Shown here piece by piece: positions 41,529-46,666 of a stretch of DNA of 64,000 bases; positions within the stretch are counted from its first letter, which is position 1, and the number at the start of each line of letters is the position of its first letter. The notes under the pieces were generated by a model, which searched no databases, was not told where the DNA came from, and was given only the letters and a program-made list of their open reading frames with translations. The translations under genes and the position numbers were made by a program. The stretch is taken from contig NZ_CP059472.1 of assembly GCF_014041915.1 (NCBI RefSeq), forward strand, positions 2,356,001-2,420,000, in the 5' to 3' direction. This DNA comes from Marnyiella aurantia (lineage in GTDB: Bacteria > Bacteroidota > Bacteroidia > Flavobacteriales > Weeksellaceae).

Positions 41529-42501
41529 TGTCTGTAATGCTGTCATAGGTTTGTTTTAGGCCTTCTTCAAAGTTACGGTATCTGTACCCCAGTTCGTTCT
41601 GTGCTTTTGAAGCGTCCAATGCGTAATTATAGCTGTATTTCTTTATCCATTTGGGAGTGATCGGCGGTGGTGTTCCTGTTATTTTCTCCCTTAAAACCAT
41701 AAGATGCCCCCCCAATAACATTATTGGTAGCGGAGCATGGAAAAGCCGGTAGTTTTTGCCGGTGATTTTCTTCATGATGCCAAAGAATTCATTGTAAGAA
41801 AGATTTTCTCCAGACAGGATATAACGCTGGCCGGGCCGTCCGTGCTCCATTGCCAAAAGATGACCTGCGGCCACATCTTCTACATGGACATAGCTGCCGA
41901 TTCCTTTGCCGTCACCCGGAATAACCCGCCATTTTCCAGCATCGTAAAGTTTAAGCATCCGTGTAATGGAATTGCTTTCCTGATCTACTCCCGGACCATA
42001 GATCCGCGGGGGATTCACGATTACAATATCCATGTTTTTCTCTTTTACATACTGAAGACAAAGTTCTTCAGCCTGCGTTTTGGAATCTTCATACTCGTTC
42101 ATTATCTCACCAATCCGCTCGTCGTCCTCCTTCACCGGTCTGCTGACTGAAGGTCCCAATACACCGGCGGTAGATGTGAAAAGTGTTTTCTGAATTCCAA
42201 GACGGTGTGCAATATCCAGGATATTCTGCACAGCACGCAAATTAATCTGATAGTAGGTATCCGGGTTTTTTGCCCAGGGTTTTGCATAAGCAGCCAGATG
42301 ATAAACTTGTTCGCAACCCAGCATCGCAGCAGCAACTGCATCTGAATCGGTAATGTCGCCTTTAAATTTTACCAGATTAATGTGGTCTTCCAGATCATCT
42401 GGATTCCGGCAAAGTGCATGCACGGTTTCGCCCTTATCCAGCAGCATGGCTTTAACATATGAACCGATATAGCCCGTAGCACCAGTCATGAATATTTTCA
42501 T
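41512..42501 (-). CDS. NAD(P)-dependent epimerase/reductase, dihydroflavonol-reductase-like
   Basis: A 329-residue extended SDR. It has GATGYIGS near 7-14, the Asp-containing FKGDITDSD near 45-53, LAAYAKPW near 69-76, and the catalytic Y-x3-K as YEDSK near 136-140. NPPRIYGPG near 163-171 and an insert before YVHVEDVAAGHLLAM resemble 4-dihydroflavonol reductase or 3-beta-hydroxysteroid dehydrogenase relatives. The last codons overlap the start of the SDR gene downstream, suggesting two sequential reductions on one substrate; the pathway is unknown. Confidence 0.85.
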   Translation of the reverse strand: MKIFMTGATGYIGSYVKAMLLDKGETVHALCRNPDDLEDHINLVKFKGDITDSDAVAAAMLGCEQVYHLAAYAKPWAKNPDTYYQINLRAVQNILDIAHRLGIQKTLFTSTAGVLGPSVSRPVKEDDERIGEIMNEYEDSKTQAEELCLQYVKEKNMDIVIVNPPRIYGPGVDQESNSITRMLKLYDAGKWRVIPGDGKGIGSYVHVEDVAAGHLLAMEHGRPGQRYILSGENLSYNEFFGIMKKITGKNYRLFHAPLPIMLLGGHLMVLREKITGTPPPITPKWIKKYSYNYALDASKAQNELGYRYRNFEEGLKQTYDSITDNEYRQ

Positions 42502-42691
42502 TGGCTTATTTTGGTTTTTGCAGGCTCAAAATACGCAAAAATTAGGCCTTAGGCATAAGATTTAACGCATTATTATTGTGTTCCGTTTTCAAATGGTCTT
42601 CTTCCTGTAGGAGATATCGGAACATGAAGGCCGTACAGCCTCAGGCGTCAGTTAAGGTGGTTCTGCTATTTTATAAACTCTTTTATTTACC

Positions 42692-42699
42692 TAAATTTG
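42692..42699 (+). promoter_or_regulatory. -7 promoter box for glnS
   Basis: TAAATTTG matches TAnnTTTG, 18 bases before the ATG at 42718. Confidence 0.6.
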
Positions 42700-42717
42700 T
42701 AGGAACAATCAATATCC

Positions 42718-44391
42718 ATGGACGAAGAAAAAAAACCACTCAACTTTATTGAGCAAATTATAGAAGAGGATCTTGCTAACGGACTGCCGAAAGAAAAGCT
42801 GAGGTTCCGCTTTCCGCCGGAACCAAACGGTTATCTGCATGTTGGACATACCAAAGCCATTTGCATAAATTTTGGCCTTGGCGAAAAATATAGCGCCCCG
42901 GTAAACCTAAGGTTCGACGATACCAATCCGGAAAAAGAAGAGCAGGAGTTTGTAGATGCTATAAAGGCTGATATAGACTGGCTGGGATTCAAATACGATA
43001 AGGAACTGTACGCTTCAGATTATTTTGATAAGCTTTACGACTGGGCAGTTCAAATGATAAAAGACGGTAAGGCGTACGTTGACGAGCAGCCTTCTGAGGA
43101 TATCACGGCACAGCGTAAAAATCCTTTTGAAGACGGTGTTGAATCTCCGTACCGGAACCGCCCTGCGGAAGAGAGTCTTGATCTTTTTGAGCGGATGAAA
43201 AACGGTGAGTTTGAAGAAGGCGCCATGTCTTTACGGGCAAAGATCGATATGAAATCGCCAAATATGAATATGCGTGACCCCGTTATGTATAGGATTCTGA
43301 AGCGTCCGCACCACAGAACAGGTGAGAAATGGAAGATCTATCCTATGTACGACTGGGCACATGGTGAGTCTGATTATATAGAACAGATTTCCCATTCACT
43401 TTGCTCCCTGGAGTTTGAAAACCACCGTCCGCTCTATGACTGGTATCTGGATCAGGTTTATGAGGACAATACGGTTCGTAACAAGCAGCGCGAGTTTGCC
43501 AGAATGAATGTATCCTATATGATAACTTCCAAGAGGAAACTTCAGCGCCTGGTAGCTGAAAATGTGGTTACAGGTTGGGATGACGCCCGTATGCCCACCA
43601 TTTCCGGCATGCGCAGGCTTGGATATACACCCACTTCAATCAGGAATTTTATTGAAAGGGTAGGTGTGGCAAAAAGAGAGAACCTTATAGATATCCAGTT
43701 ACTTGAATTCTCCGTTCGCGAGGATCTTAACAAAGTAGCAACGAGAGTGATGGCAGTGGTAGATCCTGTGAAACTCGTTATTGAGAATTATCCCGAAGAT
43801 GGTGAAGAGTGGTTGGAAACGGAGAATAATCCTGAGCAGGAAGACGCGGGCATCCGTGAAGTTCCTTTCGCCAGAGAACTTTATATTGAGCGTGAAGATT
43901 TTCAGGAAGAGGCTAATAAAAAGTTCTTCAGGCTCAAACTTGGTGGTGAAGTTCGGCTAAAATCGGCCTATATAATTAAAGCTGAGCGCGTGGATAAGGA
44001 CGAAAATGGTGAAATCATTACCATTTACGCTACTTACGATGCAAAAAGCAAGTCCGGAAGCGGCACCGAGGAAAGCCTGAGAAAAGTAAAAGGGACGCTG
44101 CACTGGGTGTCGGCAAAGCACGCATTACCCATTGAAGTACGCATCTTCGACCGTCTCTTCACGACTCAGCAACCCGATGCTGAAAAAGAGACTGATTTTA
44201 TGGAATTCATAAATCCGGACAGTCTTAAAATTGTAGAAGGTTTTGCGGAGCCAAGTCTGCAGGACGCGGCGATAGGGCACCCTTACCAGTTTCAGAGAAT
44301 CGGATATTTCACCAAAGACAAAGATTCAACTTCGGAAAAGCTGGTCTTTAACAGAACCGTTACTCTGAAAGACGGTTATAAACCAGCATAA
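42718..44391 (+). CDS. glnS: Glutaminyl-tRNA synthetase
   Basis: Charges tRNA-Gln with glutamine. The 557-residue class I synthetase has the HIGH motif as HVGHTKA near 41-47 and the KMSKS-equivalent MITSKRKLQRLV near 268-279. The nucleotide-binding and tRNA-acceptor regions (RFDDTNPEKEEQEFVDAI) come early. The C-terminal ~200 residues form the two anticodon-binding beta-barrels. Direct GlnRS implies that Gln-tRNA does not need the GatCAB route. It is monocistronic with a shared terminator. Confidence 0.97.
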   Translation: MDEEKKPLNFIEQIIEEDLANGLPKEKLRFRFPPEPNGYLHVGHTKAICINFGLGEKYSAPVNLRFDDTNPEKEEQEFVDAIKADIDWLGFKYDKELYASDYFDKLYDWAVQMIKDGKAYVDEQPSEDITAQRKNPFEDGVESPYRNRPAEESLDLFERMKNGEFEEGAMSLRAKIDMKSPNMNMRDPVMYRILKRPHHRTGEKWKIYPMYDWAHGESDYIEQISHSLCSLEFENHRPLYDWYLDQVYEDNTVRNKQREFARMNVSYMITSKRKLQRLVAENVVTGWDDARMPTISGMRRLGYTPTSIRNFIERVGVAKRENLIDIQLLEFSVREDLNKVATRVMAVVDPVKLVIENYPEDGEEWLETENNPEQEDAGIREVPFARELYIEREDFQEEANKKFFRLKLGGEVRLKSAYIIKAERVDKDENGEIITIYATYDAKSKSGSGTEESLRKVKGTLHWVSAKHALPIEVRIFDRLFTTQQPDAEKETDFMEFINPDSLKIVEGFAEPSLQDAAIGHPYQFQRIGYFTKDKDSTSEKLVFNRTVTLKDGYKPA

Positions 44392-44428
44392 TAAAAGAAC
44401 TCCGGAATTAACCGGAGTTCTTTTATTA
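44391..44428. terminator. Bidirectional terminator between glnS and the 30-codon ORF
   Basis: A perfect 15-bp stem at 44391-44405 and 44412-44426 (inner part AACTCCGG / CCGGAGTT) with a 6-base loop AATTAA. Runs of A and T outside the GC part make it work in both directions. Confidence 0.9.
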
Positions 44429-44518
44429 AACGGTACCTCTCACGAAGAGCTGTTGTCGTAATTTTCTGAACATCAGCCTGTAGCCAACGCGGATTTTAGT
44501 GTAAAGTGAAGTTTTCAT
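44426..44518 (-). CDS. Possible 30-residue cationic microprotein
   Basis: An ATG-to-TAA frame of 30 codons starting at 44518. The product begins MKTSLYTKIRVGYRLM and has eight Lys/Arg and no Asp or Glu. Hydrophobic residues I9, Y13, F17, L20 and L24 recur every three or four positions, so it could form a cationic amphipathic helix. A promoter with TTTG-N19-TATCTTTA lies 20 bases upstream, and the ORF runs into a perfect terminator. No family recognised. It could be a membrane-active peptide, a ribosome-associated leftover, or a non-coding RNA with a chance ORF. Confidence 0.5.
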   Translation of the reverse strand: MKTSLYTKIRVGYRLMFRKLRQQLFVRGTV

Positions 44519-44538
44519 AATTGTATGTTTTTGTCGTA

Positions 44539-44569
44539 TAAAGATAGTGATTTCTAATTATACTGCAAA
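44539..44569 (-). promoter_or_regulatory. Promoter of the 30-codon ORF (TTTG-N19-TATCTTTA)
   Basis: On the minus strand TTTG (44566-44569) lies exactly 19 bases from TATCTTTA (44539-44546), matching the consensus spacing with one mismatch in the -7 box. Confidence 0.55.
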
Positions 44570-44635
44570 TTGTATTATTTTAAATTTATAATAACATAAT
44601 GTTAATAGAATAATCCTGAATTTTAACTCATTTCT

Positions 44636-46666
44636 ATGATAAAAATTTTCCGCCTTACGCTTACTTTGCTACCCCTCTTTTCATGCGCCCAGATAAGCGA
44701 TTCTGCACAATTAATATCAGAAGTTAAGATTGAGGCACACCGTAAACCTGTGTCTCTTATTGCATCAACAAAATCTGTCTCAGTTGCCGGACCGGCTTTA
44801 TTAAATCAAAATCCACCGGACAGACTGTTGGAGTCGGTTAATCTGCTTCCGGGAGCACGCATGGAAGAACGATCACCCGGAAGTTACCGTTTTGCTGTCC
44901 GTGGAAGCGCTTTGAGGTCTCCTTTTGGTGTACGCAACGTAAAGATCTATCTGGACGATTTTCTGCTTACAGATGCCGGCGGCAATACCTATCTTAATCT
45001 TCTTGATCCAGAAATAATCAGCAAAATTGAAGTCTATAAAGGCCCTGAAGGTGGTGAATTTGGTTCGGTCACTGGTGGCACAGTTCAGTTGAGTACACAG
45101 AGAGCAAGCGGTAAAAGTGTGGCCTTTTCCGGTGGTGAATTTCAAAATTATAAAGGCAGTCTGAGGCTTGCTGATGAAGCCGGGAAACATACGTATCAGC
45201 TTTTTACCGGCTACCAGAGCACTCAGTCCTACCGCGAGCAGTCGGCACTGGAAAGAAGGATAGTTTATCTTACGGACCGGTTTCAGTATTCAGACAAAGG
45301 AAATTTAGGGTTCATGTTCCTTAACTCAGATCTTCATTACGAAACTCCAGGTGGGCTTACATTTGAACAGAAGCAGGCAAACCGGCGGCAGGCCAGACCC
45401 GGTACCGCCGTTATGCCCGGAGCATTGTCTCAGCAGGCCGGAATCTATAATAGAATGGTTTTAGGGGGCATCTCGCACCGTTACAGAATTACGCCAGCCT
45501 TCAGCCATTTCATATCGGTTCAGGGCAGCTATACTGACTTCAGGAATCCTTTCATCACCAATTATGAGCAGCGTTACGAACGTAATCTGGCCTTCCGGAC
45601 CCATTTTAATTTTGAAACAGCCACTTCAAACAGTTTTTTTCAGACACGTGTAGGTGCAGAAGGTGGTAGCAACAGATCAGTAATCCGGAATTTTGATAAT
45701 GATGCCGGAATTCCCGGTGCTCCTCAAAACTTTGATGATATCTCCGCCGAAAGCGGTTTTATCTATCTAAGTCAGAAGGCTGAATTTTCTGACCGACTTT
45801 TTTTGGACGCTTCTGTTAGTCTCAACATAACCAGATACCGTTGGGAAGGAATCTTTCCAAACCATATTTCCGCCGTGAGACAACTGGATACAGAAGTTCT
45901 GCCAAGTCTCGGAATTTCTTACGTTCTGATGCCCGGCTGGTCCGTTCGGGCTAAGATCAGTAAAGGCAACTCTGCACCGACAATAGAAGAGTTACGGTCA
46001 TCCACACAACGGTTTAACACGGATTTGGCAGCAGAATACGGCTGGAACCGTGAGCTTGGAATTCGGAAGCAGTTTGGTAACAGTCTCTTCCTGGAAGTAA
46101 GTCTTTTTGATTTCCGCCTGAAAGATGCCATTGTCCGCCGCCAGACCGACGGTGGGCAGGAATATTTCCTAAACGCGGGATCCACCGTTCAGCAGGGGCT
46201 GGAAACGGTGTTGGAGACGAAACCGTTTCAACTGGATACTCAACTTTTAAAGTCCGTTAAGTTTTGGCTGTCCGGCAGTTTCTATGATTTCAGATTTAAG
46301 GATTTCAAACAGAATGAAAATGATTATTCCGGGAACAGACTTACCGGTGTTCCCATGCAAACTGTCCAAAGCCTTGTTTCATTAAAATTATGGCATTATA
46401 TAGGAATCGACTGGGCACACTACTACACTTCTGAAATTGCACTGAATGACAGTAATACGGTTGTTTCCGAACCCTCTCTGGTATCAAATATCACTCTTAG
46501 TTTTCCGTGGAGTACATCCTTTTTCAAGGCAGATCTTAACTTTACTGTTATGAACTTATATAACAGTGAGTACAGTTTAGGGCACGATATCAATGCTTTT
46601 GGCAGCCGTTTTTATAATCCTGCTGCAAAGAGGAATATTTCAGCCGGCATCCGCTTCCGTTTCTGA
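44636..46666 (+). CDS. TonB-dependent outer-membrane receptor
   Basis: A 676-residue outer-membrane transporter energised by TonB. It has a signal peptide (LTLTLLPLFSCAQ), then a plug domain: LLESVNLLPGARMEER near 65-80, PFGVRNVKIYLDDFLLTDAGG near 96-116, and IEVYKGPEGGEFGSVTGGTVQL. A 22-strand barrel follows, ending in the terminal GIRFRF. It lacks a carboxypeptidase-like N-terminal extension and is not followed by a SusD partner, so it resembles siderophore, cobalamin or metal receptors rather than glycan uptake systems. A lipoprotein gene follows 28 bases downstream. The ligand is unknown. Confidence 0.9.
   Translation: MIKIFRLTLTLLPLFSCAQISDSAQLISEVKIEAHRKPVSLIASTKSVSVAGPALLNQNPPDRLLESVNLLPGARMEERSPGSYRFAVRGSALRSPFGVRNVKIYLDDFLLTDAGGNTYLNLLDPEIISKIEVYKGPEGGEFGSVTGGTVQLSTQRASGKSVAFSGGEFQNYKGSLRLADEAGKHTYQLFTGYQSTQSYREQSALERRIVYLTDRFQYSDKGNLGFMFLNSDLHYETPGGLTFEQKQANRRQARPGTAVMPGALSQQAGIYNRMVLGGISHRYRITPAFSHFISVQGSYTDFRNPFITNYEQRYERNLAFRTHFNFETATSNSFFQTRVGAEGGSNRSVIRNFDNDAGIPGAPQNFDDISAESGFIYLSQKAEFSDRLFLDASVSLNITRYRWEGIFPNHISAVRQLDTEVLPSLGISYVLMPGWSVRAKISKGNSAPTIEELRSSTQRFNTDLAAEYGWNRELGIRKQFGNSLFLEVSLFDFRLKDAIVRRQTDGGQEYFLNAGSTVQQGLETVLETKPFQLDTQLLKSVKFWLSGSFYDFRFKDFKQNENDYSGNRLTGVPMQTVQSLVSLKLWHYIGIDWAHYYTSEIALNDSNTVVSEPSLVSNITLSFPWSTSFFKADLNFTVMNLYNSEYSLGHDINAFGSRFYNPAAKRNISAGIRFRF

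Follow-up and report, generated by a model that had tools for sequence, protein, structure and literature searches.

A conserved cationic microprotein gene beside glnS in Marnyiella aurantia and a probable family of 25-30-residue relatives, many preceded by sigma-54-like promoters

The 64,000-nucleotide stretch of the Marnyiella aurantia genome analyzed here (the window) holds a minus-strand ORF of 30 codons at positions 44426-44518 (ATG start, TAA stop; MKTSLYTKIRVGYRLMFRKLRQQLFVRGTV) which, by its orthologues and its dN/dS, is almost certainly a real translated gene. On balance we lean towards the view that the ORF is an authentic microprotein gene from a hitherto undescribed family of cationic, probably helical peptides of 25-30 residues that would act as effectors of a stress regulon. 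The ORF is flanked by the convergent glnS (glutamine--tRNA ligase; 42718-44391, plus strand), for which the nearest named loci are from Kaistella and Chryseobacterium (89-90% identity), and by a divergent TonB-dependent receptor gene that starts at 44636 (44636-46666, plus strand). The initial annotation had proposed a peptide with eight Lys/Arg and no acidic residue, and the window sequence bears this out (K2, K8, R10, R14, R18, K19, R21 and R27; no Asp or Glu). Taken alone, this composition is weak evidence, since at least eight Lys/Arg and no Asp/Glu occur in 4 of the 122 ATG-initiated ORFs of 25-35 residues within the window; it is conservation of the peptide, not its composition, that raises the ORF above chance. 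A leader peptide was considered and rejected because no gene lies downstream on the same transcript: a terminator sits at the stop codon, followed by the convergent glnS.

Thirty-residue orthologues were present in all four genomes of the window genus, the three from the other genomes being 87, 67 and 33% identical to the window peptide. A search with the single peptide against 59 genomes matched three, namely the window's own, G001 (87%) and G003 (67%), and in the latter two the 30-residue ORF occupies the same place after glnS as in the window. The remaining genome of the genus, G002, was missed by this search; its 30-residue ORF (L035:4347-4439, minus strand) was found by reading past its glnS, lies about 1.2 kb beyond that gene and aligns without gaps to the window peptide at 33% identity. 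This ORF was added to the profile before that profile recovered it, so the recovery is not independent. Two minus-strand ORFs of 216 and 132 codons (L035:3195-4261) separate glnS from the microprotein gene in G002, where no hairpin abutting the microprotein stop codon was seen by eye.

The pattern of substitution indicates that the peptide is under purifying selection in a single frame, with in-frame dN/dS of 0.17-0.32 across the window genus, the 25-residue group described below and the g26 sets; all values derive from uncorrected proportions, and those for the 29- and 30-residue groups exclude L035, L157 and L194. The window gene and its ortholog at L006 differ by 7 changes over 20 synonymous sites and by 4 over 67 non-synonymous sites (dN/dS 0.17; one-sided Fisher p = 0.0024). 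When L007 is included, the in-frame value is 0.27, as against 1.3 and 2.6 after shifting the frame on the same strand; a low value (0.31) was also obtained for the antisense frame with the third codon position in common, which such a frame would be expected to show. Five g26 genes gave 0.29 in frame and 1.08 and 1.12 in shifted frames, and 45 distinct 25-residue ORFs (two 26-residue ORFs being excluded) gave 0.32, compared with 0.95 and 1.18 when the frame was shifted on the same strand. The L045/L047 pair, with 6 changes, yielded 0.23 and one shifted frame at 0.46, and the g24 pair gave 0.55 with 3 changes; both have too few changes to be informative. Start and stop codons are unchanged across the window genus, and replacements are mostly conservative. 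The checks that had been suggested, a peptide search in relatives and a synonymous-rate test, returned a conserved peptide with dN/dS of 0.17-0.27 within the genus, and the proposed microprotein gene, complete with promoter and terminator, was upheld by a peptide of the same length in all four genomes, its wider occurrence in the family and the in-frame synonymous excess.

The predicted promoter of the window gene was present upstream of the ORF at the spacing originally proposed, with TTTG at 44566-44569, a 19-nt spacer and TATCTTTA at 44539-44546 (44539-44569 overall, minus strand). Sequence and consensus identify it as a Bacteroidetes-type -33/-7 pair of the sigma-A type, in which A replaces the last G of TAnnTTTG, the flavobacterial sigma-A -7 box as given in the part of PMC9723704 drawn on here. 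The -7 box is retained in L006 and appears as TATATTTA in L007, this being a short box with no shuffle baseline. A scan of positions 42500-46500 for E. coli-type promoters and terminators gave nothing above shuffles and did not list the window terminator.

By sequence and folding, that terminator is a bidirectional intrinsic hairpin at 44389-44428 that spans both stop codons, its stem (arms at 44389-44405 and at 44412-44428 around a loop at 44406-44411) extending from the glnS stop codon to that of the microprotein ORF. Its folding energy is -29.6 kcal/mol (z = -7.8) on the minus strand and -26.8 kcal/mol (z = -8.7) on the plus strand, and none of 200 shuffles folded as well. The initial annotation was right that the stem is perfect and reaches the stop codon, but its length is 17 rather than 15 bp. 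The hairpin is not the microprotein's own, being common to this ORF and the convergent glnS, and since it is shared in this way, the description of the transcript as antisense to nothing fails for read-through transcripts from glnS. Each of five relatives that were folded (L006, L007, L045, L038 and L157) also has a hairpin 3' of its ORF, of a different sequence, giving a post-ORF hairpin in all six folded loci of the 28-30-residue group. A lookalike of the terminator stem occurs at G000:C1:2281874-2281914 (L003 and L004; 84-86% over 35-41 bases, both strands) and is probably another terminator sharing the hairpin core.

Relatives of 28-29 residues were found by searching 320 genomes of the family with profiles of 4 and 11 rows, which identified members in seven g26 and two g24 genomes; in G014 (g12), which reached only E = 0.02, a 29-residue ORF (MKAFAKIVRAKYYAWLTQMKENIFVNGVI) close to glnS is accompanied by a hairpin and a TACATTTG promoter. 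All ten of these relatives are convergent to glnS. A further 29-residue member (L194), the only clear one from a combined-profile search of 80 genomes, is located away from glnS in G308 (g26), between two other genes that we take to be prfA and fumC. No member was found in 20 of the 36 g26 genomes. Several candidates were set aside: none of 12 loci inspected among the weak matches of an initial 3-row profile (E 0.005-0.1) was a clear member; L148, antisense at the promoter of a secG-like gene, was judged a chance match because its frame crosses a hairpin and a promoter; and L147, within a long gene, and L150 were rejected. In four g26 loci (L038:1470, L040:1467, L048:1494 and L145:1494) an acidic out-of-frame small ORF overlaps the microprotein gene, starting 7-10 nt before its ATG, and is probably not coding because it is broken at once in L144.

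A family-profile scan of 80 named glnS loci revealed a second group of peptides, of 25 or 26 residues (e.g., MKKIKKRFSYILTYIKKAIFVKDVI), encoded on the opposite side of glnS and, in five of the seven loci with neighbors listed, 11-440 nt from a gene that is presumably menC-like. A member of either kind was present in 28 and absent from 22 of the 50 loci L055-L104, and loci L105-L134 had no accepted member of either kind. Closeness of the 25/26-residue genes to glnS in the named loci is by construction, because only about 3 kb around glnS was scanned. A whole-genome search with the 25-residue profile, unconstrained by glnS, matched 182 of the 320 family genomes at E <= 0.001 (172 of 173 in g20, 8 of 36 in g26 and 2 in g22), with one match per listed genome except for two each in G144 and G154. 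The genus g20 is evidently Chryseobacterium, because several of its loci match named Chryseobacterium loci exactly, over both ORF and upstream sequence (e.g., L164 to L069 and L179 to L074). At the thresholds used, the two forms together match 197 of 320 family genomes (g1, 4; g20, 172; g26, 16; g24, 2; g22, 2; g12, 1), a count that includes unread members at the weak end, such as G298, G316 and G175 near E = 3e-4 and G024 at 6e-5. Among 296 order-level genomes there was no convincing match outside the family; the matches that did fall outside it (10/47 genomes, all at E = 2.4e-4 or weaker and unread) were taken as chance, and the best of them has an internal stop. As far as sequence searches reach, members occur within a portion of a single flavobacterial family, which the names of related loci indicate to be Weeksellaceae.

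In 37 of 54 loci of the 25/26-residue group, including L074, L067 and L069, the stop codon is followed at 27-48 nt by a conserved element, ATTATCCGACCCTAnnATTACTTTA on the sense strand, versus 3.3% of shuffles. This element carries a TAnnTTTA-like box on the antisense strand, and a conserved -33 box on that side was not found. Possible roles are those of an antisense promoter, a regulator site or a functional RNA element.

Searches of the peptides against Pfam, NCBIfam, PHROGs, PADLOC and PDB, and of the window against Rfam at gathering scores, returned nothing beyond chance; weak library matches, both for a 25-residue relative, were to Imm2 (E = 0.16) and to a phrog of unknown function (E = 0.38). 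A literature search gave no recognized description of the family, which small-protein catalogs may list. We file it as a putative new family within a known kind, the conserved bacterial microproteins.

Upstream of the 25/26-residue genes, we scored a TGGCAY-N5-TTGCW-like pattern of the -24/-12 type, counting distinct upstream-plus-ORF sequences (49 for the 25/26-residue and 15 for the 28-30-residue group). An element scoring at least 9 of 11 was found within 100 nt in 47 of the 49 regions, versus 1.1% of base shuffles, although this count overstates independence because the upstream regions are interrelated. The elements lie 44-58 nt before the ATG, and the two regions below threshold are L057 (8/11) and L089 (7/11). 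From this pattern, sigma-54 control of the 25/26-residue group is highly likely. In the 28-30-residue group the element is present in 5 of 15 regions, all from g26 (L038, L040, L048, L144 and L145), versus 0.8% of shuffles, and 9 of the remaining 10, the window included, have a TAnnTTTG or TAnnTTTA box (counted without a shuffle baseline). None of the four upstream regions of the window genus has a sigma-54 element (best scores 6-7/11); the best score upstream of the window gene is 7/11, without the GG. The corresponding region of L006 retains a GG-N10-GA sequence (TGGGCTTGATTAGGAA, 6/11), which hints at recent loss of a sigma-54 element.

The assignment of the 25/26-residue group to a stress regulon rests on published flavobacterial work together with a comparison to groES. 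In Flavobacterium psychrophilum, sigma-54-type promoters precede the genes for GroESL, DnaK, GrpE-DnaJ, HtpG, ClpB, Lon and Skp, according to the portion of PMC9723704 used here, and the sigma-54 regulon predicted for Flavobacteriia in a comparative study is enriched in chaperones, as far as the part of PMC12316311 drawn on here extends. In 15 of the 17 genomes of the family checked (L224-L240), TGGCA...TT[AG]G lies 53-57 nt before the groES ATG and is a probable sigma-54-type groESL promoter. These elements score 7-9/11, three of the 17 reaching 9, with a shuffle rate of 3.7% (63/1700), and for this link position and conservation weigh more than score. In L229 the wrong start was taken, and in L234 a neighboring segment scored best though TTGGCAAACTTTTGGAG is visible. 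The window genome encodes rpoN and has seven Sigma54_activat matches, of which two are at true-activator strength; this domain model also matches other AAA+ proteins and matched in all 14 control genomes. The 25/26-residue group thus resembles the protein-quality regulon (SM4) of F. psychrophilum in promoter type and in that the genomes tested have rpoN and domains of the bEBP type, but no microprotein is among the selected SM4 promoters printed in the portion of Table 2 of PMC9723704 used here, and the window gene itself has a promoter of the sigma-A type. Since the window genus lacks the sigma-54 element, the stress link is not directly applicable to the window gene.

AlphaFold2 with a 26-row alignment predicted a single helix over residues 2-27 (mean pLDDT 80, pTM 0.35). 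The helix of the window peptide had been described as amphipathic, a claim that did not survive comparison with shuffled sequences, its best 18-residue helical moment being 0.43 versus a shuffled mean of 0.34 (p = 0.18). Across 54 distinct peptides, 33 had a moment above shuffles (p <= 0.05), all of them among the 39 of 25/26 residues and none among the 15 of 28-30 residues. Net charge is +6 to +10 in 14 of the 15 longer peptides (L157 is +4) and falls to between +2 and +4 in some 25-residue members.

Several alternative explanations bear on whether there is a gene, and on whether there is one family. That the open frame is incidental, within a non-coding RNA or in a stretch without any gene, we regard as extremely improbable; the frame is very short and glnS would be expected to have a strong terminator anyway, but the frame-specific synonymous bias between the window and L006, the constant start and stop codons with mostly conservative replacements, and the absence of any window match to Rfam at gathering scores all argue against it. 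The initial annotation had left the function open among membrane-active, ribosome-binding and RNA-regulator roles, and the same codon evidence disfavors a purely RNA one. A different concern is that the two length classes are separate lookalike families, leaving the window gene real but confined to the smaller, mostly glnS-linked group. The classes score poorly against each other in HMM searches (best E = 0.0017 in one direction and 0.05 in the other), each has a constant length that differs from the other's, their promoter class mostly differs and, in the loci read, the 25-residue genes lie on the opposite side of glnS from the 28-30-residue genes that follow it, L194 excepted. Nevertheless, in a single hhalign comparison the two align at the C-terminus with a probability of 95.9 and E = 6.5e-9, most members across the two groups end in [ILV]-F-[VIA]-x-[GDN]-x-[VI]-stop, and L194 encodes an intermediate-looking peptide (MIKRLRTIRVHYYLFLKRLKKSIFVDGVV). 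Sigma-54-like elements occur in both classes, and the g26 genomes holding one class or the other form disjoint sets. We consider it very probable that the peptides form one homologous family, and separate origins accordingly quite improbable.

Two further alternatives concern function. The peptide could resemble a type I toxin, a cationic amphipathic peptide that depolarizes the inner membrane when over-produced and is kept low by antisense RNA, the source of which would be glnS read-through in the window, where nothing else is possible, and an RNA from the conserved 3' element in the Chryseobacterium genes. Type I toxin peptides such as TisB are likewise about 25-30 residues, cationic and helical, and the 25/26-residue group shares their amphipathicity in the 33 of 39 peptides noted above; the convergence of the window ORF with glnS, and the downstream element with its antisense TAnnTTTA-like box, fit as well. 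Type I toxin loci are generally patchy and multi-copy, however, unlike a family that has a conserved C-terminal motif and matches once in almost all genomes of a genus. Moreover, the antisense box lacks a conserved -33 partner, no hydrophobic stretch long enough for a membrane-spanning segment is evident by eye, and the four peptides tried had no PADLOC match at E <= 1, the sequence comparison with toxins being limited to the named libraries; we judge a toxin unlikely. An equally small likelihood attaches to a ribosome- or RNA-binding microprotein, e.g., a lineage-specific ribosomal protein or a stress or hibernation factor. The high charge of the longer peptides and the near-universal presence of the 25/26-residue form in one genus (172/173 genomes) would suit such a role. 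Against it stand the lower charge of some 25-residue members, the lack of a convincing match outside the family among the 296 order-level genomes, and the PDB, ribosomes included, in which neither the window peptide nor the 25-residue profile had a match at E <= 10 and the sole match of the 28-30-residue profile was a telomerase-associated protein (E = 0.32), a 30-mer comparison being weak.

A small helical effector of a sigma-54 stress regulon, as we propose, is a plausible if tentative assignment. In bacteria with the sigma-54 promoter, the microprotein would be induced together with the sigma-54 protein-quality and envelope stress regulon and would lie as one helix against a surface, which could be the inner membrane or a partner protein (chaperone or protease). 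Its fixed hydrophobic C-terminal tail may serve as the recognition element through which it would tune the protein-quality or envelope machinery. In the window genus the gene would instead depend on the housekeeping sigma factor and probably be made constitutively. Somewhat more doubtful is the most specific form of this proposal, a new, near-core microprotein family in which the 25/26-residue form is dedicated to the flavobacterial sigma-54 protein-quality and envelope stress response, the helix acts as an adaptor by docking its fixed free C-terminus into a chaperone or protease, and orthologues have come to differ in promoter type through switches between sigma-54 and sigma-A. Enterobacteria have tiny effectors induced by stress, such as MgtS and AcrZ, which modulate larger machines and are mostly single transmembrane helices; by description the present peptides are like them in being short and, as proposed, stress-controlled modulators of larger machinery, but differ as cationic helices with a fixed C-terminus.

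If this reading is right, a gene carried by essentially every genome of a large genus is missing from the family libraries searched for the reason that it encodes no more than 25-30 residues. The 25/26-residue form, with its strongly conserved sigma-54-like promoter, would provide both a ready reporter and a candidate effector for the sigma-54 stress response of flavobacteria, which has been little studied, and the contrast in promoters among related genera would offer a test case for regulatory rewiring.
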